From: Physcia stellaris
Lineage: Eukaryota > Ascomycota > Lecanoromycetes > Caliciales > Physciaceae
DNA: 64,000 nucleotides
NCBI GenBank assembly: GCA_018902385.1
Contig: JABSSW010000015.1
Coordinates: 682,001 to 746,000 of the forward strand
Reading direction: 5' to 3'
Below the pieces are notes generated by a model that saw only the letters and a program-made list of their open reading frames with translations, had not been told where the DNA came from and did not search any database. Shown here piece by piece: positions 49,857-60,577 of this stretch; the stretch's first letter is position 1, and the number at the start of each line of letters is the position of its first letter. The position numbers were made by a program, and so were the translations under genes.

Positions 49857-52800
49857 TCAGACCACTCCAGTTACCCTCCTAATGCTTCGACGTGCTCCCT
49901 CACCACTGACCGAGACCTGCCCTTCTTGCTCCAGAGAGCGCAATGCGTCTGCAAACTCAACGCCTTCCACTTGAGCACTGCCTTGCTCACTGATACGCCG
50001 GAAAACCTCCGAGTACCGCGCTGCTCCGCCTTGCCTCGTCATCTCGTCCAGGAGATCCGTGATCGCCTTCTTCAGGTCTGCCTTTCTTCGTCTCTCGCTA
50101 GCACTCGTCCCTTCCGTCAGCAGGCCCATGTCAATCAGACCAGTCCGCGAGTCAGTAGCTGCTTGTTTGAGCGCAGACTTGATCAAGCGAACCGCTTCCG
50201 ACACGTCGTTTGCCGTCACCTCGTCTGCTAATCGCATCTTCGCGTGTGCCTCTGCCAAACGGATCATCGACTCCAGCTGCCGTGTGGTCGCAGTGATCCG
50301 TCGTTCCGCTGCCCGCACGTCTTCTCCCAGCTTGCGCATCTCGATATAAGAACGCACAAGCTCATCCGACGCCGCCTGCGTGATACGTGGCTGGCATTTC
50401 GTCCGTGCGTACGAAATGTAAGACGTGAGAAATTCGACCGGCTGCCTCACGTTAGCCACCCCAAGGTCGAGAAAGCGAAAGCAAGGTGACCCACCAAGAT
50501 TTCCTGCTTGCTCGCGTTCTCAGGCGTGTCCTCTAAATACATACCCACCAGATGTCGCGCCAACCTTCGATCGTTTTGCTCGTCGATCCGGTCCAAGACT
50601 AAATAGACCAAATCAAACCGGGACAGCAAGGTAGGGGGTAAGTCTATGTTCTGTGGAACAGGCAGGTTGATGTTGTATTTGCTTCCAATCGGGTTCGCGG
50701 ATGCCAAAATGCTGGTTCGGGCGTTCAAAGTAGTAATGATACCAGCTTTCGCAATAGAGACAGTTTGTTGTTCCATGACTTCGTGCAACACCGATCTTGT
50801 CGAATCAGACATCTTATCGAACTCATCGATACAGCAGACGCCACCGTCAGAGAGGACAAGGGCTCCAGACTCGAGCACTACTTGACGTGTCTCGGGGTCA
50901 CGGCTTACATAGGCGGTAAGACCAACGGCCGACGACCCTTTGCCACTGGTGTAAACTCCTCGGGGCGCGATCTTGTGGACATATTGCAGGAGTTGGGATT
51001 TCGACGTAGAGGGGTCGCCGCAGAGTAAGACATTGATATCTCCCCGGTACTTTGGACTCCCGCCTTTTTCAAACGATTTGTTGGTTCCTCCAAATAGCTG
51101 TAGCAGAATGCCTTTTTTCACATCGTCCATTTCATACACGCTTGGTGCTAGAGATCTTGAGAGAAGCTCATACACGTCTCCTCTTGCTGCTGTGCTTTTA
51201 ATCTTTTGTTCTTCTTCTTCGGTGACTTTCCTTGTCTGTTGTACGTCGCCGGCCACTTGCTCAGAAAGCTCTTGTTCGATGGTTGACACATCAATACCGA
51301 GTCTCTTCTTATCAACTTTCTGGATGTGTAGGACGTCAATGTATGTCTTGAACAAGGCTTTGATTGTCCGCTGTCTAGGGTTGATCCGGACTGGATTGCT
51401 TCGAAAGATACCTGTTACTTCAATTCGATCACCCGCTTTGCACACGTCAACAAGCTCTTCGTATGCGCAAAGTGAGACGGAATGCGGTGTCTGTCCATCA
51501 GGTACATTATCAGGCGTTTCCTGGAGTTTGATTATTTGCTTATCTGCAAATTCACATCGATTGTGCACAATCTGCATTGAATTTTGAGACTGACAGGCTT
51601 GTCGAGGACACCGTGTGGGCTCTGCGATCTTGCCCCTATCGAGCGTTACGTTGACTGCGTGGTTGCATACTTGACAGCGGAAGAATGCAGTTTTCATGTC
51701 CGGTATGACTGGCGTCGTTCGAATAACGAGACCTTTGATGCTGACCATCTTATCCATATCTTATCATCTGTTAGTAAAGAACGTATCAAGCTCATGCAGT
51801 TTGCGCAACTACATACCATTAGGATTCAGCTCTCTCATATTGACGGATGTTTCCAAACCGAAGGGTTTAACTTTGTACACCTTGGTCTCTGCTTCCATCA
51901 CGAGATCCGGAATCAGCTGTGTCTGATTAACAGACCCATTTGCCTCAGAGCTAGGCATCACAGGCATGGAGCTATTGGGTCTCTGGTTTGGGTGGGCCTG
52001 CTGTTGCTCGGCACGTAATCTATTCATCTCTTCCTCTGCTTGATCTACAATAATGTCCTTAATGGCTTGGTCCATGAGCGGAACGATTTCGTGAGGGTAA
52101 GCTTGAAGTTGATGCCAGAGCTTGACCGTTGAAGGAAATGCTTTTAAATTCCGCACGTCCAAGTTGAAGCCAGTCACTCCTAAATGACGCATCGTGGTCA
52201 ACATCTCGATGTACTCTCTCTCATTTCCACCGCTTTCAGGTTGAGAGGTTTCGTCTTCCGTGGCACCGTCCGCCCACATTCTATACTTCTTTTGGTAGCC
52301 GAGCAAGAACTCTTTGAAAGTAGACATAGTGTCCTGAATAGATATGTTCGTTCCCCATATCACTCTGGTCGAAGATCCTCCGATAGCATCAGCTTCAGAT
52401 GTATTGGGGTCGAGGTTTGAAAAGGTATCTGTGTCGGAATTTGGCATTCCGTCCCGCACTGGTACGCCATTCTCATCCACGAACAACCGTCGACGACGAC
52501 TTGTTGAGGAGCTGAAAACGTCGGAGTGGATGTCACTTCTCCTGGAGTTGTTAAGGGTGGACGGACCTCGCCCGTTCGACCTTGAAGACCGTATGAAGAG
52601 CCCGCTGCTACTGGTCGGCACATCTGCCTCATGCTGGACGTTTCCATTTGCGGCGCGCGTAGGGCTAGAGCTTGAGGCGTAGTGTATAGGCGACGATTCT
52701 GCGATTAAGAGTCAGAAGAGCTTGAGGGAAAGCTTGGTTGAATATTTTACCTCCAGGAGCTTGGACTCTGCCTCTAGGAGTACTCTCCGCGACGGACATT

Positions 52801-53165: not shown

Positions 53166-53181
53166 TCGCGTTAGGAGCGAG

Positions 53182-53225
53182 TACGGAGACTGACACCATT
53201 AGTCCTGCCCGCGCCCTAACCCTAC
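53182..53225 (+). repeat. Left terminal inverted repeat of the transposon
   Basis: Starts TACGGAGACTGACACC and ends CCCTAACCCTAC, so it carries a telomere-like CCCTAA pair. It differs from the right end by one base (G here, A there, read on the right-end strand). Confidence 0.85.
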
Positions 53226-54594
53226 GGGGGCATCAAATGGGGATAAATATCGCAATTTTCGCAGTACGGGTGCAAAGCATTTTCACATATCACGAATCAG
53301 ATCAAATCGTTCAATTTCGATGTAATATGTGTAGCATAGAATGATTATTATTATCTGATTGAATTTAATGCAATCTGATGTTGAATTTCGTCGCTGTTTT
53401 CATGAAATTGCGTAATATCGCAATATCGTTTTTCGAGTCTTCAATTTTTTTCATTTATTTTTATAATTTGATCGAATTTCTGCTTTTCGTCTTGTATAGA
53501 TCAATTTTCTTTTTTTGAATTGTAAAGACGTACATGATTTTTGTTTGAAATCTCAACGATTTCATCGTGTTCGTTGATTTTCACGATTTTCGTTGCTTTT
53601 TTCTGTATTCATTTTCTCTTTTTAATTCGATAAATTTTTTGATATGACGTGACATTCGCTCAATTCAATGCTGTATGCGTGTTTGAATGAATTTTTTGTA
53701 TCATAAACGTTTGAAAGTCGTCGTCATATCATGTTTAGTCTTCGAAACGTCTTAATTAGATTAGCGAGTTTGATACATCGAATTCTGTTGTATCGAAACA
53801 AACTCATCTTTTTCGTCAACTTTGCGTTTCATTCATTATCAACAAAACTCTATCATGTTCAAATCGGGCGAATTGTCGCATCAAAGAAATTTCAAAATTT
53901 CGACATCGATGAAGACTTTGCGCAAAATCAACGAAACGTTGTGAAAAAATGAAATAACTCATTGATTTTGCATTTTCGAAACATGTGAAAAAGCATCGTT
54001 TTTCATAACAAAAATGTTGAATTTATTTTTTTGACATTTTTGAACAAATGACATCAACAATGAAAAAAAAATTTTCTTTTGATAGCGAAATCAATCAATA
54101 TCGTTTTTGTTTTTTCGTTTTATTTTGTCGTGATTTTTGTTTCATTTTCATTCAAATTTCTTGTCAAACAAATTATGCAAAGCAAATTTTCGAATCGCGT
54201 TATTGAATTTTCATTCGATTTTCATTATTGATTTCAAGCGACGATTCATTTCATTAATAATTTTGTTTGTTAGTTTTCGATTTTCGACAGTCTCGTTTTT
54301 GAAAATGTGACAAAAATTTTTTTTGTCATAAATGAAACAATTTCAGAACATAAATTTCGAATAGTTTGTTGTTAATCAATACATCGAAAACGACGAATTC
54401 AAAAAACAATTGATTTTTTCAACGAAATTTAACACATGTTTTTTCATACATTTCATCAATTTTGCGTCAAATTCGTGTTTCATTTCGACGATTTGTTTTT
54501 GACGTCAATAGAAATCTTTACATAATATAAAAAGTTTACACATGATCACGTTCGTTTCATCAATTCATATGACGTTTTTTCAGTTTTCAATAAT
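53226..54594 (-). pseudogene. Decayed 3' half of the Tc1/mariner transposase
   Basis: After the first catalytic Asp (in IDET, minus strand about 54556-54567) the frame cannot be followed with confidence. Composition stays strongly mutated to about 53230. I could not find the second Asp (DNA-P-H type motif) or the third acidic residue. Confidence 0.5.
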
Positions 54595-55027
54595 TCAATT
54601 TTCATATTTCAAAACAAACTTCAAACGAGTCTGTTTCATTTTATCGATGAAATCTGATTTACGTGTAAATTTGACGCAATGAAAGTCGTTCTTTTTGAAT
54701 ATGCGACGTATCGTGAAAATCGAGACATCGTGTTCATATTTTAAAATTTCAGCAAACATTTCGCGATCGTTGCGATTCTTTTGCATTGAAATTGTTAATA
54801 GAATTATCGTTCTTAATCAAAGAAAGAGATGATTTATTTGAAATCAAAATGATTTTCTTTTTCGCAAAGTCACAAATAATTGATCGATTTGAACGAGTCG
54901 CATTCTGTACATACTCGAATTTTAATATTGTAGAGATTTTTGAATCGAAATTTCGATTTTTCGTTTTTTGCAATAAACGTCGAATTGTACGAGAATATTT
55001 GATGTCGATTGATATACAAACATTCAT
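54565..55027 (-). pseudogene. Decayed 5' half of the Tc1/mariner transposase
   Basis: Two overlapping minus-strand frames (54749-55027 and 54595-54786) make up the DNA-binding part; the second reads FTIRRIFKKNDFHCVKFTRK, the paired helix-turn-helix pattern of fungal Tc1/mariner proteins. It then continues through stops as N*IIEN*KNVI*IDET. This matches the family pattern NWT-EDWKNVIWSDET, with the first catalytic Asp in the last block. The three Trp positions are all TGA (54595-54597, 54580-54582, 54565-54567). There is also one frame change between the two pieces. Confidence 0.8.
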
Positions 55028-55268
55028 TTCAAATACGTCATGTACGTAAAGAGCAAAAACTTGAAATCGTTGAACATCGATGTAATTGACGTTTTGAAAT
55101 CGTTTCTGAATAAATTTGACGATTTTTTTGATTTGATGTAAATTGTAAAAAACACAATGACGAGAAATCTTTACATTTTCGTCAATAACGACGTGTTTTC
55201 ACGCGTTATCGTTTGTTTTTGTTTTGTTCGCAATCTTTTGAGCTCGTATATTCACAGAGAAAGCGACA

Positions 55269-55976
55269 TTGATCGCAACAATAATGACAGTTGCAATTGA
55301 AACGATTGCAACAAATTCAAAAATTTGTCGAAATTCGTCATTTTCGTATCAAATGCTCGAATTCAGATCAGCTTCGAGAGAGAAAAAAGCAGAAAAAATT
55401 CTAAATCTAGATGAAACTTTCTCAATCGAAGTCGAAAAAATCGCTAATTCGATCGCAACAAAAGTCGAAAACTCGTCAAAAGAAAAGAATTCGTCAAAAA
55501 AGAACGATTTTTCATTAAAATTTTCAAATTTCGAGAAGTTTGATGATTCAATCATTGCAAAAAATGTGAAAAAAACGACAACAAAAAATCGACGTGAAAT
55601 CACAACAAAAAATTGTATTGACGTCGAAAAAGATGAATTCGAAACATTTGCACGATTTTTTGATCGAGTATTCGAAACAACAAACGATTGTATTGAAATC
55701 GAAATCGTGATATCGATCGAAAAAAATGAATTCGAAATATTTGCAATTTTTCTTGATCGAATGATCATGATAAAAAAAACAACATTGAAATTGAACGACA
55801 TATTGATTGAAATTCGAATGAGTTCTCGATTCACAAATGAAAATTTTGAAATGAAAAATAGAAATTTTGCACAGAAATTGCACGAAAAGATCACGATATT
55901 TATGAAAACTCATCTATTTTCTCGTCTGAATATCAAAGAATTTCAAATGCTCGAATGTTTTTTTTTCGATCATTGA
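55269..55976 (+). other. Long AT-rich open frame inside the transposon, with an internal duplication
   Basis: An open frame of 235 codons of low complexity (Glu, Lys, Phe, Ile, Ser). Its openness follows from the base composition, which lacks CT/AG and therefore TAG, and I see no family resemblance. It contains two imperfect ~50-base copies (55621-55670 and 55712-55763) both encoding an EF(E)TFARFFDR-like segment. I do not call it a gene. Confidence 0.35.
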
Positions 55977-56568
55977 AAACTCAAAGAAAAAGATCTGAAT
56001 TTTTTTCAAATCGACGATTACACATTCAAATTTCTGGAGACATACGAGATTTTTCACGCATGAATGAAAGCTTCACACTCTTTCAATGATGATGATATCA
56101 TTGAAATCTGAGATATCTCGTGTTCAGAAGCCGATTTAGCTTGATAAGAGCAGAGATAAACGAGATTTCTCGAACTCTAGAAGTTGCACAATTACTCAAT
56201 AAATGAAACAAACAAGATGAGATCATTGCAGTTCGAGAAACGGACTGTTTCTCGATTTTTACATCTGTTTTCACATCAAAATCGCAGAAGATGTACGAGA
56301 TGTCTCACGAAAACTCTCGGTTTTTCTGCGGAAGTGCTCGATTTCTGCATTGTAGATCTATCACTCGATTTTGTGACTCAATCTGGGCTGAGAATGAAGC
56401 CATATTCATTCAAATTGAGAGAAATTTACATACAAAAGAGAATGAATCATTCGAGACTCTCCAGAACGTGCACGCCTCGTTCGAAAGATCACACAATATC
56501 AGATGAGTTTGAAACTCTAGTCACCTGACATCGAGCCCTAATTGTGGGGGTGTATGCGCAACCCTATT

Positions 56569-56612
56569 GTAGGATTAGGGCGCGGGCAGGACTAATGGTG
56601 TCAGTCTCCGTA
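56569..56612 (-). repeat. Right terminal inverted repeat of the transposon
   Basis: Reverse complement of the left end with one mismatch (GGATTAGGG here against GGGTTAGGG). Ends GTCTCCGTA at the TA target. Confidence 0.85.
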
Positions 56613-56917
56613 CCCCGCTCGGAGTATAATTAGTAACTACTGTAACGTATCCGTATTCCGGTCTCCGCTGCGCAGCTCAAGCAAGAGGAAAAATACTCGT
56701 AGAACATGATGGACCGAAGTGGGCTCGGCGGGGTACTCGTACTTTACCTTAAGGTAGTAGTGTATGCTAATGTTCATTCAGTAACTCGAGTGATAGCGAA
56801 CAGCTTGGGACGTCTGTCATTTGCTACATCCGTGGACTATCCATATCTTCAGGTGATACTCGGACCAGTAGGCCCAATGCGACTGGCATTGCAGATTCCT
56901 GTCCCACTCGCTTGGAA
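56613..56917. other. Sequence between transposon and REV1 3' end
   Basis: Normal base composition, no gene seen; contains the REV1 3' flank. Confidence 0.4.
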
Positions 56918-59900
56918 TCAAAAGTCCACCCGACCTAGTCCCCGTCCTTGGAGAGCCCTCTGCATACCCTCCCGGATCTTCTTCAATGAAGAGTCCCATC
57001 TCTCCATGCCTTTCCAAAGCTCTTGTTTCGTGTTCAGTCGCTTCGCTTCTTCCACCGTCCATGCAAGCCATTTGCTTACACCGACAGCTTTAGCCATATT
57101 GTGCTCTTCTTGTACCACCTTCCGGAGATATTCAACGAGAACGTCCACATCTTCCTCATACGGTCCCTCGCCGGCAAATTCGTCAAACCATTCGTCGATA
57201 GCCTCTCTTAACTCAGGTAGCTCGGAAAGCTTCCTAGATGTGAACGTAGGCTTGGGGGGACGTGGTGCCAATTGAAGTTTGCGTTGACCCGTCTTCGCCG
57301 TCTGGTGAGATTGATTTCTTTTATTCTTTTTCGACGTAGAAACGTCGATTCCACCACGTGCCTGTAACCTTTCACGACGTATCTGCGCAAGGACTTCGCT
57401 GCGTAGCTCTGGGGGCAGGGCTGAAAGGAATTCGTCTGTTATCTCCGCTGATTTTGCCTGCTGTTGCTCGTCGGATTTACTTTTTGGCGGATTAGGACTG
57501 TTTGCAACAAAGTTCGATTGTGTGAGTGTCGAGAATGCGGAGTCTCCTTTGATACGAGAGAGGAGGCCAAGACGTTTTTTGTTCTTGGTTGGTGTGGTCT
57601 GCTTCTTGGTATTGACGATACGACTCTTATGGGGAGATTGGGGAAGTCGCGTCTGAGCATTGGGCTTGCGCGGGGAAGTCTTGTAGAATGCTAAAACCTC
57701 AGCGCGAACATCCTCCGGGAGGGCTTCCAGAGTTTCGGCGTCAATTTGCGAATGGGATGGAATGTTTTCCACGGCGAGGAATGGGGACGTTGAACGCGAG
57801 TTGGTAGGTGTTGACGCAATCGCCTTGGTTTCGTATGAGTCCAATGCCTCCTTGCACATAAGCTTTGATCGTATATCCTCTGGAAGCTCAGCAAGAACAG
57901 TAGCATCAAGCTGACTTGGTACTACGAATTGTGTTCCAGAGGTGTTCACTGTTGAACGACGCTTGCCACTTGGGGATTCGTCTGATGCCAACGAGGCTGC
58001 AGGATGTTGTATTTGAGCTCGAAGGTTTTCCGGAGTGACAACCTCATGAATAGTATCTTCTTGAGGAGGTGAGACGATTGAAACTTTACGAGTCGAGAAC
58101 TGAAGGCGCCTTTGACTGCTAGCTATCGGACTCTCAGCAGCGCCCTTGAGCGGCTCCAATCGAGTCATCTGAACGCCAATGCCTCTGAGTTCCCCAGGAG
58201 AAAACCCCCAGCCACGCATAATTGAAATGGCTTCGCGGGAGAGTATTTCTTTTTCATTGGTAGCGACGCCAAGTACGACGCTCTTATTGAAGGTGTCACA
58301 TTTACCATGCCCCAAGTGCTTAGGAGGATCTAAGGGTGCATCTGCAGCTCGTCGCATTACCTTCATAGTAAGCTGGCGACCTTTGACCTTCTCTGTCATC
58401 AATCGCTTGTGCAACTCCTCGCAAAGACTCTGGACGAACTCGTCGGCCTGATCTTGGGTAACAAATCGTATGCCCCAGTTCACCTCTGCCGAAACAGACT
58501 TACGTATCACTTGCTCTCCGACTTCGGCTTTATCAATGCCACGTGAATAGTCCCAGACCTTCTCTCCCGTTCTGGGTCCAAGGGTAGACATCAATCTCTC
58601 TTTCGTCAACCCTCTCAGGTCTTTTACAAACTTCACCCCGAGTTCTTCCAACTTCCGACCAATGCTGTAGGCGACTCCAGGTAACTCTTGGACAGTCAGA
58701 TCACCTATAAAGCCGAGTACTTCTTCAGGCTTGATATGATATTGGCCCGCAGGCTTTGCTCTTCGCAAGGCCACCTTGGCGAGTAATATGTTACCTCCTA
58801 TTCCAACAGAGACGGCACAGCCGGTAGTTTCCTTTATCGTCTCTCGGAGATTTTTTGCCATATCGTCCGCCTTGGTCTGCTCGCGCCAGATGCTCCCTTC
58901 GTGTATTCCAATGCCGTTGTGTCCTCCAGCTTCAATGCATGCATTGCTCACGTCTACAAGTGCTTCGTCTACACTGACGCTTTGGACAAGGCCTCCAGTG
59001 GCCATCATGGCATCGTAGAAGAGTCTACTAGCTTCTTCATAGGCTTTGAAATCATACGGTAGCACTTTGAGATCTGGACACATCTTCTGGGCATGCTTCA
59101 TCCACATACCGTTCCTGACTCCGAATTTTCGCGCTGGATAATTACAACTGGCAATCTCGCTGCCCGGCCCACCACCGTGAGCAACCACGACGGGCTTATC
59201 CACGTATTGGGGGGACTTCTTGAGAGACACAGCAGCGAAGAAGCTATCAAAATCCACGTGGAGTATGTAACGCCTTGAGCCAGGGGGCCGTTTCTGTTTT
59301 GATTTCTGTGATGAAGACTTTTCTGCCGCTAGAGCCTGAAGCTTCGATTTCAAATCGGCTTTCCAAGCAGACAAGTGGTGCAACCGTGACTCTTCGTAGT
59401 ATTGCTTCAAGAAGCCGGGGTTGACAACGGTGGATTTCCAAACCTTCGGATCAGCCAAGAGATAAGCATTATGCTCTTCCGCAGAGACGTTAGGCTTGGC
59501 AGGCTCCGGACTTGACGACAACCTTCTATAGCTTTCTTGTGTCTGAAACGCCTGGGCAGCTTTTACCTCCGATGGGCTAAACGAGGAGTCGCATGACGTT
59601 GTCGGGCTATAGTTTGCTTCTTGGGCATTATCTGAAGGTACTGCAGGTAATGCCGCAGGTACAGCGGAGGCTGTACCTGTATGGTTATTAAGCTGATCCT
59701 GGGTCTGTGAAGCGTCCGGCTTAGCGGGCGACGAGTATGTTTGCTCAGCCGTTCTTTTGCCTGAATGGTCATCCAGGCGCTCAAAGTCCGACGGGGCTTC
59801 AAATTGGTCCTTATCATGGCTTTGTGTCGGGCTTTCTGACATGTCACGTATATCGGTAGACGTGCCTACATTTGTCGCTCTCTCGGCATATTCGTTGCTT

Positions 59901-60577
59901 CCCGTCAAAATCCCGGAATGTTTCACAGCTCCTTCCTGCGTTAGAGCTTTGCCATCATTCGAAATGGTGTCACTAAGTTGGTCGTTTAGCTGATTAGCCA
60001 ATTCCTGGATCTGACCTGTGTACCAGCTCGTGTTTGTCTGATCTTTATAGCCCGTTTGGGAGCGATTGGCCTGGCTGACAACATTGCCATTGTCGAAGCC
60101 TAGTACCTGTTGGCCCATGCCTTCATCGACAACCCTGTACGCGTCCCATGGTAAAAGCTTCCCAGCTCTGATGCTATCTACAATCCATGCTGGCTTCACG
60201 ATCCTGTACTTGCTGAACTCGACCTTCTTCTTTGGCGTAAGATTACTCGCGATAATGTGCGTCACAACTGTCTTTCCATCAAGGTATTGCATGAAGCCGC
60301 CACCGTAGCTCACAACCATATGGTGCAAGTCATTCAATGAGGGCTGCGTGTAGCCGTTGACATGCGCGACGATGCCACGGAAAATTGGAGGGTTCTTTGA
60401 CAAAGAACCACGTAGTTCAGCATCCAGATTCTGTAATTTGATTTTTTTCCTTCTGAAATACTCAGTGAAGCCTCCAAACTTGGACCCTCCATATTCTTCT
60501 CCTTCTTCACTCTCGAACTTGTGTTTTTCAATGCGCTTGCGGACATTGGATGAGTTGGTCTCCAACCGTGAGCCCAT
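56918..60577 (-). CDS. REV1: DNA repair protein Rev1, deoxycytidyl transferase
   Basis: Y-family polymerase that inserts dCMP opposite lesions and recruits Pol zeta. One exon, 1,219 aa, with no internal break. A BRCT domain lies at about residues 60-150 (GIVAHVNGYTQPS, GGGFMQYLDGKTVVTHIIA, KPAWIVDSI). After a long Ser/Thr/Gln linker comes the polymerase: YILHVDFDSFFAAVSLK with metal-binding Asp residues, SVDEALVDVS with the catalytic Asp-Glu, VSVGIGGNILLAKVA and the little-finger VNWGIRF. Three ubiquitin-binding motifs follow (LPEDIRSKLM, LPEDVRAEVL, LPPELRSEVL), then the C-terminal domain that binds other polymerases (about residues 1100-1200). The start MGSRLETNSSNVRKRIEKHKFE is a good family match. 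Confidence 0.96.
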   Translation of the reverse strand: MGSRLETNSSNVRKRIEKHKFESEEGEEYGGSKFGGFTEYFRRKKIKLQNLDAELRGSLSKNPPIFRGIVAHVNGYTQPSLNDLHHMVVSYGGGFMQYLDGKTVVTHIIASNLTPKKKVEFSKYRIVKPAWIVDSIRAGKLLPWDAYRVVDEGMGQQVLGFDNGNVVSQANRSQTGYKDQTNTSWYTGQIQELANQLNDQLSDTISNDGKALTQEGAVKHSGILTGSNEYAERATNVGTSTDIRDMSESPTQSHDKDQFEAPSDFERLDDHSGKRTAEQTYSSPAKPDASQTQDQLNNHTGTASAVPAALPAVPSDNAQEANYSPTTSCDSSFSPSEVKAAQAFQTQESYRRLSSSPEPAKPNVSAEEHNAYLLADPKVWKSTVVNPGFLKQYYEESRLHHLSAWKADLKSKLQALAAEKSSSQKSKQKRPPGSRRYILHVDFDSFFAAVSLKKSPQYVDKPVVVAHGGGPGSEIASCNYPARKFGVRNGMWMKHAQKMCPDLKVLPYDFKAYEEASRLFYDAMMATGGLVQSVSVDEALVDVSNACIEAGGHNGIGIHEGSIWREQTKADDMAKNLRETIKETTGCAVSVGIGGNILLAKVALRRAKPAGQYHIKPEEVLGFIGDLTVQELPGVAYSIGRKLEELGVKFVKDLRGLTKERLMSTLGPRTGEKVWDYSRGIDKAEVGEQVIRKSVSAEVNWGIRFVTQDQADEFVQSLCEELHKRLMTEKVKGRQLTMKVMRRAADAPLDPPKHLGHGKCDTFNKSVVLGVATNEKEILSREAISIMRGWGFSPGELRGIGVQMTRLEPLKGAAESPIASSQRRLQFSTRKVSIVSPPQEDTIHEVVTPENLRAQIQHPAASLASDESPSGKRRSTVNTSGTQFVVPSQLDATVLAELPEDIRSKLMCKEALDSYETKAIASTPTNSRSTSPFLAVENIPSHSQIDAETLEALPEDVRAEVLAFYKTSPRKPNAQTRLPQSPHKSRIVNTKKQTTPTKNKKRLGLLSRIKGDSAFSTLTQSNFVANSPNPPKSKSDEQQQAKSAEITDEFLSALPPELRSEVLAQIRRERLQARGGIDVSTSKKNKRNQSHQTAKTGQRKLQLAPRPPKPTFTSRKLSELPELREAIDEWFDEFAGEGPYEEDVDVLVEYLRKVVQEEHNMAKAVGVSKWLAWTVEEAKRLNTKQELWKGMERWDSSLKKIREGMQRALQGRGLGRVDF

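Follow-up and report, generated by a model that had tools for sequence, protein, structure and literature searches.

Repeats of Physcia stellaris carry C-to-T mutation at CpC and CpT instead of CpA, probably through a RIP-type process

The window analysed here, a stretch of 64,000 nucleotides of DNA from the lichen fungus Physcia stellaris, contains a decayed transposon, probably Tc1/mariner-like, at 53181-56613. It is flanked by a piece of an MCM gene (50447..51757, minus strand) and by a REV1-like gene (56918..60577, minus strand; Pfam IMS, REV1_C and BRCT), both recognised by Pfam matches and both with normal dinucleotide composition. The terminal inverted repeats of the element keep CpC: the left 45-nt arm (53181..53225, plus strand) is 98% complementary to 56569-56613, and the right 45-nt arm (56569..56613, minus strand) pairs with it. 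The left end is matched at 98-100% by several further genomic sites. Between the arms lies a core depleted of CpY on both strands (53272..56035), with its sole CC/GG at 53866-53868; over 53280-56020, CC and GG together number 2, where base composition would predict 114. The right internal part (56036..56568) is weakly mutated, with CpC lowered and CpT about normal, as read from the CC/GG positions and a 300-bp profile of the window copy (C15).

A sequence-only reading had placed the block of lost CpC and CpT at 53230..56000; the depletion stood, and the limits were corrected to those of the element given above, whose first 90 or so bases retain CpC and whose last 580 or so retain CpT and some CpC. 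For the retention of CpC at the ends (53181-53270 and 56036-56613) and its absence from the core, gene conversion, missing homology or protection are conceivable. The observed/expected ratio of CC was at least 0.68 in 61 of the window's 64 one-kb bins, so that the presumably non-repeated genes in the window are unaffected, as in canonical RIP; it fell below 0.6 only in the three bins holding the element (0.51, 0.00 and 0.00 in bins 53001, 54001 and 55001).

Within 53230-56000 (GC 0.291), the observed/expected ratios were 1.25 for CA, 2.64 for CG, 0.46 for CT, 0.06 for CC and 0.34 for TA. Hand counts from three rows (53881, 54421 and 55681) proved exact, with CA 22, CG 28, CT 3 and CC 0 on both strands, and TpA 5 against ApT 23 on one strand (10 against 46 on both strands). 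The sequence-only reading had also expected standard RIP indices to call the block unmutated, and for the core they do, TpA/ApT being 0.36 and (CpA+TpG)/(ApC+GpT) 1.46. Likewise, alignment to the copies C40 and C53 confirmed that three Trp positions of the transposase remnant read TGA (54529..54630, minus strand); the third is still TGG in C40, the least mutated long copy. TGA arises from TGG by a CpC change on the opposite strand, and TAG from TGG would need a change at CpA. The C40 transposase matched HTH_Tnp_Tc3_2 with an E-value of 3.8e-5 and 24.3 bits, below the curated cut-off of 31.5.

The P. stellaris sequence searched for copies comprised 44.0 Mb in 147 contigs, the published assembly being described as 184 scaffolds and 46.57 Mb (PMC7513301). 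It holds two further long copies of the window element (C53 and C40), along with fragments on C47 and short derivatives left by deletion; no undecayed long copy of this element was found in the 44.0 Mb. From C40 to C15, C>T changes affected 69/113 CpC (.61), 163/308 CpT (.53), 43/407 CpA (.11) and 43/326 CpG (.13) sites, and from C40 to C53 the counts were 84/120 (.70), 202/316 (.64), 28/423 (.07) and 15/350 (.04); sites adjoining alignment gaps are dropped from these and all other context tables. The reverse tables to C40 show CpT changes as well (79/200 from C15 and 52/161 from C53; CpC 9/41 from C15), indicating that C40 itself is partly mutated, and alignments that start from an already mutated copy leave few CpC sites to test. 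In this family CCC was changed at 12/38 sites, against.66-.79 for ACC, GCC and TCC. The deletion derivatives (339-544 bp) lie on contigs C26, C3, C4, C2, C43, C74, C10, C75 and C5 (L018-L022 and L024-L027). In the nine scored, L023 being left out, the CC ratio was near-normal (at least.86) in five and.11-.55, that is, partly mutated, in the other four, so a length threshold like the several hundred bp of canonical RIP does not stand out.

Because no undecayed long copy of the window element turned up, undecayed references were taken from two other families. The DDE_1 transposon L032 (C12) has a 493-codon open stretch and normal dinucleotides. From L032 to its decayed relative L038 (C43), C>T was found at 221/277 CpC (.80), 185/305 CpT (.61), 20/294 CpA (.07) and 18/309 CpG (.06), with 446 C>T in total against 37 T>C and 66 transversions; the reverse table gave.04-.07 for every context. 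In the L032 frame all eight TGG codons had become TGA in L038, and none of 27 codons that could yield stops from CAA (n=10), CAG (n=9) or CGA (n=8) had done so. Elements of about 150 bp, both ends of which match the L032-family ends at 84-98%, occur at many sites (e.g. C22:245431-245581).

The second reference family is a LINE with 41 listed copies, two of them undecayed (L049 on C5 and L050 on C12, 95% alike, with normal dinucleotides) and 39 others at 69-81% identity to L050, of which the three fetched, spanning 79-71% identity, were all decayed. Between L050 and L049,.02-.05 was changed at each of the four contexts in both directions. From L050 to L064, changes were found at CpC 416/478 (.870), CpT 212/422 (.502), CpA 17/439 (.039) and CpG 11/458 (.024); to L065, at CpC 438/485 (.903), CpT 310/421 (.736), CpA 33/443 (.074) and CpG 13/462 (.028); and to L066, the most decayed copy fetched, at CpC 482/488 (.988), CpT 420/427 (.984), CpA 53/447 (.119) and CpG 19/463 (.041). 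L066 is thus nearly saturated at CpY, with a GC content of 24.7%, and over 3472 columns it carries 978 C>T against 14 T>C and 30 transversions, other changes amounting to 1.3%. Expressed as -ln(1-p), this corresponds to 4.1-4.4 hits per CpY site against 0.013 non-C>T changes per column, a ratio above 300, which suggests that an enzyme aimed at repeats fits better than slow decay. CpA is weakly hit rather than fully spared, since 11.9% was changed in L066 against a background of 2-5%. CpC and CpT rise in step across L064, L065 and L066, with a CpC:CpT rate ratio that differs among copies (about 2.9 in L064 and 1.1 in L066).

CpC was changed more than CpT in all six comparisons with an undecayed or least mutated reference (C40, L032, L050). 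Over these comparisons the changed fraction was.04-.12 for CpA against.61-.99 for CpC and.50-.98 for CpT, and the canonical preference for CpA was not found. Pairs of decayed copies gave CpC 39/40, CpT 90/162, CpA 9/303 and CpG 5/296 (L037 to L033) and CpT 63/71, CpA 8/224 and CpG 6/262 with zero CpC left to test (L046 to L045). No clear rule appeared between the copies L041 and L044, both of near-normal GC (.48 and.47; from L041 to L044 CpA.13, CpC.10, CpG.18, CpT.18), nor from L037 to L036, a 56% identity alignment that includes non-matching parts (CpA.23, CpC.37, CpG.27, CpT.43). All copies were chosen from best matches in one genome, with the undecayed ones as stand-ins for the true ancestors.

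These alignments support the suggestion that the bias reflects a preference for CpY, and neither of the two findings named in advance as refuting it was obtained: the copies differ by CpC and CpT changes, not mainly by CpA to TpA, and the undecayed copies of both other families lack the bias. A CpY-poor composition from the start, or descent from a host with such composition, would be compatible with the missing undecayed long copy of the window element. The normal dinucleotides of L032, L049 and L050 and the fact that their decayed relatives differ mainly by C>T at CpY speak against it; this origin was rejected for the two families aligned and appears highly improbable overall.

In the pooled LINE copies (L064, L065 and L066), the changed fraction of CpC was.94 after A,.91 after C,.90 after G and.94 after T, and that of CpT was.72,.80,.68 and.75, respectively, with.07-.09 for NCA and.02-.04 for NCG. 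The effects of positions -2, -1, +2 and +3 were smaller than that of the 3' base. Exceptions were the first C of CCC, which was hit less in L064 and L065 (.76 and.75) than other CpC (.89-.98), and GCT in L064 (.38 against.60 for CCT). The 3' base decides, and the 5' base matters little though not nil. A 3'-neighbour rule is typical of RIP and methyltransferases and not of APOBEC-type deaminases; both APOBEC-type deamination and UV damage depend on the 5' base. An AID/APOBEC-type DNA cytosine deaminase or UV damage could alter repeats by C>T on both strands, as seen here, and lichens are exposed to UV, but a 5'-dependent process would not spare TCA (.09) and TCG (.04), and UV would not halt at element borders. 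The APOBEC_N profile had no match in the genome in a weak search that also found none in the control genomes. The 3' dependence led us to reject such an origin, which seems barely credible.

Both strands were mutated in every 500-bp bin holding sites in the four copies tested, with some bins of L038 unequal between strands (e.g. 49/51 against 48/80). Strand-wise patches, as left by one-strand events, were considered for L064, where runs of top- and bottom-strand changes were fewer than in shuffled data (259 against 317), and were rejected: the ratio is no different in the saturated copy L066 (369 against 453), so the deficit reflects the placement of sites. The stops scored in transposon remnants across the genome were mostly TGA. 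Among the DDE_1 matches, 9 of 10 contained stops (44 TGA, 3 TAA, 0 TAG), among the DDE_3 matches 21 of 23 (47 TGA, 6 TAA, 2 TAG), and among the RVT_1 matches 140 of the 150 scored out of 527 candidates (250 TGA, 33 TAA, 3 TAG), giving a total of 341 TGA, 42 TAA and 5 TAG. The presence of TAA and TAG stops indicates that the CpY rule is not absolute.

Several repeat families carry the bias, which is spread over a number of contigs. On C47 (361500-377200), which partly consists of the window's own family, the CC ratio was at most 0.11 in 30 of 32 segments of about 500 bp, and two 500-bp segments had 13-18% GC. The first 5 kb of the stretch on C81 were depleted like C47. Of five small contigs sampled over their opening 2 kb, two had no CC, one was partially depleted and two were normal; the stretches from C47, C81 and the small contigs are not a random sample.

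A search for RID and DIM-2 homologues, proposed from the sequence-only reading, recovered both classes: the PF00145 profile gave four rows representing three genes. One has an open frame of 1118 codons with motif VI ENV, and we take it to be DIM-2-like from its motifs. The other two, RID-A on C5 (motif VI EQT) and RID-B on C6 (motif VI EET), are presumably paralogues of the RID/Masc1 class expected under canonical RIP, a label assigned from PF00145 and the EQT/EET triad rather than from comparison to Neurospora RID itself. Both frames are open except at gaps resembling short introns, and the in-frame TGA of RID-B falls inside two such gaps. RID-A is best matched by a published P. stellaris gene model (99% identical), and residues 14-523 of RID-B align to a 524-residue Heterodermia protein.

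A tree of 138 rows (from 235 domains cut from 237 proteins, plus RID-A and RID-B) placed RID-A and RID-B in two different clades (supports of 99/96 and 98/93), each with Physcia and Heterodermia, the latter being the sole other named member of the RID-B clade; a third clade (99/92) consisted of Teloschistaceae and Bacidia rows. Deep placings are unsure owing to several long branches, and the RID-B rows were unresolved in a smaller tree of 34 rows. Among the RID-class proteins collected (P0001-P0237, many from lichens where named), the three supported clades carry EQT, EET and ENT variants of motif VI. EET is listed for Rid of Botrytis cinerea and P. destructans (PMC6709928), and B. cinerea, Sclerotinia sclerotiorum and Magnaporthe oryzae combine CpT signatures beside CpA with a common RID motif (Amselem 2015, PMC4352252), so EET may be associated with pyrimidine targets. 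It cannot by itself be the cause of CpY targeting, as EET rows fall in several clades. Nor does a second RID gene alone yield CpY, since RIP is of the CpA type in Phialocephala subalpina, which carries two RID-like genes (PMC5148876).

We consider it probable that P. stellaris repeats are subject to a RIP-type process that has CpY rather than CpA as its target, likely via a RID-class enzyme. The alignments show C turning into T on both strands before a pyrimidine, most rapidly at CpC and next at CpT, with CpA and CpG near background. The enzyme proposed for this, a RID/Masc1-class cytosine-5 methyltransferase, would attack duplicated DNA during the sexual phase, its target having shifted from CpA to CpY. 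The divergent RID-B is a candidate; RID-A or the DIM-2-like enzyme may be responsible instead. That RID-B itself switched the target, giving an opposite neighbour rule in this lichen lineage, is a tentative proposal with somewhat less than even prospects.

Two RID-class enzymes might instead act jointly, each with a context of its own, CpC for one and CpT for the other. Two paralogues are present, and the CpC:CpT ratio varies between copies, so two activities are conceivable; a single CpC-preferring enzyme acting over several rounds would, however, explain most of the data, with both contexts rising together in the LINE copies, and we regard a division of labour as rather unlikely. Distinctly unlikely, in our view, is methylation of repeats by the DIM-2-like enzyme, of the heterochromatin branch, after which CpY 5-methylcytosine would become T either in a DIM-2-dependent form of RIP or spontaneously, through slow deamination. 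CpG, which elsewhere is methylated most often, is near background here, CpC is consistently changed more than CpT, and the excess of CpY hits over other changes in L066 would exceed ordinary methylcytosine decay. The DIM-2-like gene is nevertheless present with an open frame, and Neurospora DIM-2 is described as methylating all CpN with CpT preferred (2026 review, PMC13297926).

The proposed CpY-directed process resembles canonical RIP, the RID pathway of Neurospora crassa, in its C:G to T:A changes on both strands of repeats, its sparing of neighbouring genes and the accompanying RID-class and DIM-2-like genes. It differs in that CpA, the preferred canonical target, is near background, CpC and CpT are changed at up to 98-99% and TpA/ApT is low. 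As a major class, CpT to TpT is shared with the CpA+CpT RIP of B. cinerea, S. sclerotiorum and M. oryzae (PMC4352252) and of Anisogramma anomala (PMC10998396), and the EET triad of RID-B with B. cinerea Rid (PMC6709928); in those fungi, however, CpA is a target too and CpC goes unnamed in the available text, in contrast to P. stellaris with CpC strongest. The CpT class in itself is not new: in alignments from fungi capable of RIP, van Wyk 2021 names CpT to TpT as the dominant change (PMC7882544). CpC appears in work on Monilinia, as a class of double mutation (PMC8959702), and on S. nodorum, among the depleted dinucleotides (PMC2621366). The CpG or TpCpG signatures of Microbotryum and Tuber (PMC4352252) likewise involve C>T in repeats with a neighbour other than A, but CpG is near background in P. 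stellaris.

Among Lecanoromycetes, the lichen Cladonia rangiformis also has homologues of RID and DIM-2, AT-rich transposon blocks with sharp borders and, as a further likeness, two small DNA transposon families that are often unmutated; in contrast, the GC content of its transposon-derived DNA has its peak near 16%, against the higher GC of L066 (though not of the two C47 segments at 13-18%), and no dinucleotide context is named in the available text (PMC12542154). CpA dominated in a study of rRNA pseudogenes (PMC5555474), and a kingdom-wide k-mer survey of 2025 describes a CpA preference shared by RIP-like defences (PMC12543289). In the literature found, whose coverage is incomplete, the contexts were CpA, CpA+CpT, and CpG or TpCpG, with no case of CpC+CpT in which CpA was spared.

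CpY-directed mutation leaves CpG and yields stops that are mostly TGA, which alters how decayed transposons should be sought, and RIP indices based on TpA can give false negatives. If a switch in RID-B is true, searches relying on CpA/TpA indices would miss such RIP. What determines the neighbour rule of RIP has, to our knowledge, no settled answer; a genome in which that rule is reversed and two RID-class paralogues can be compared opens the question to testing.
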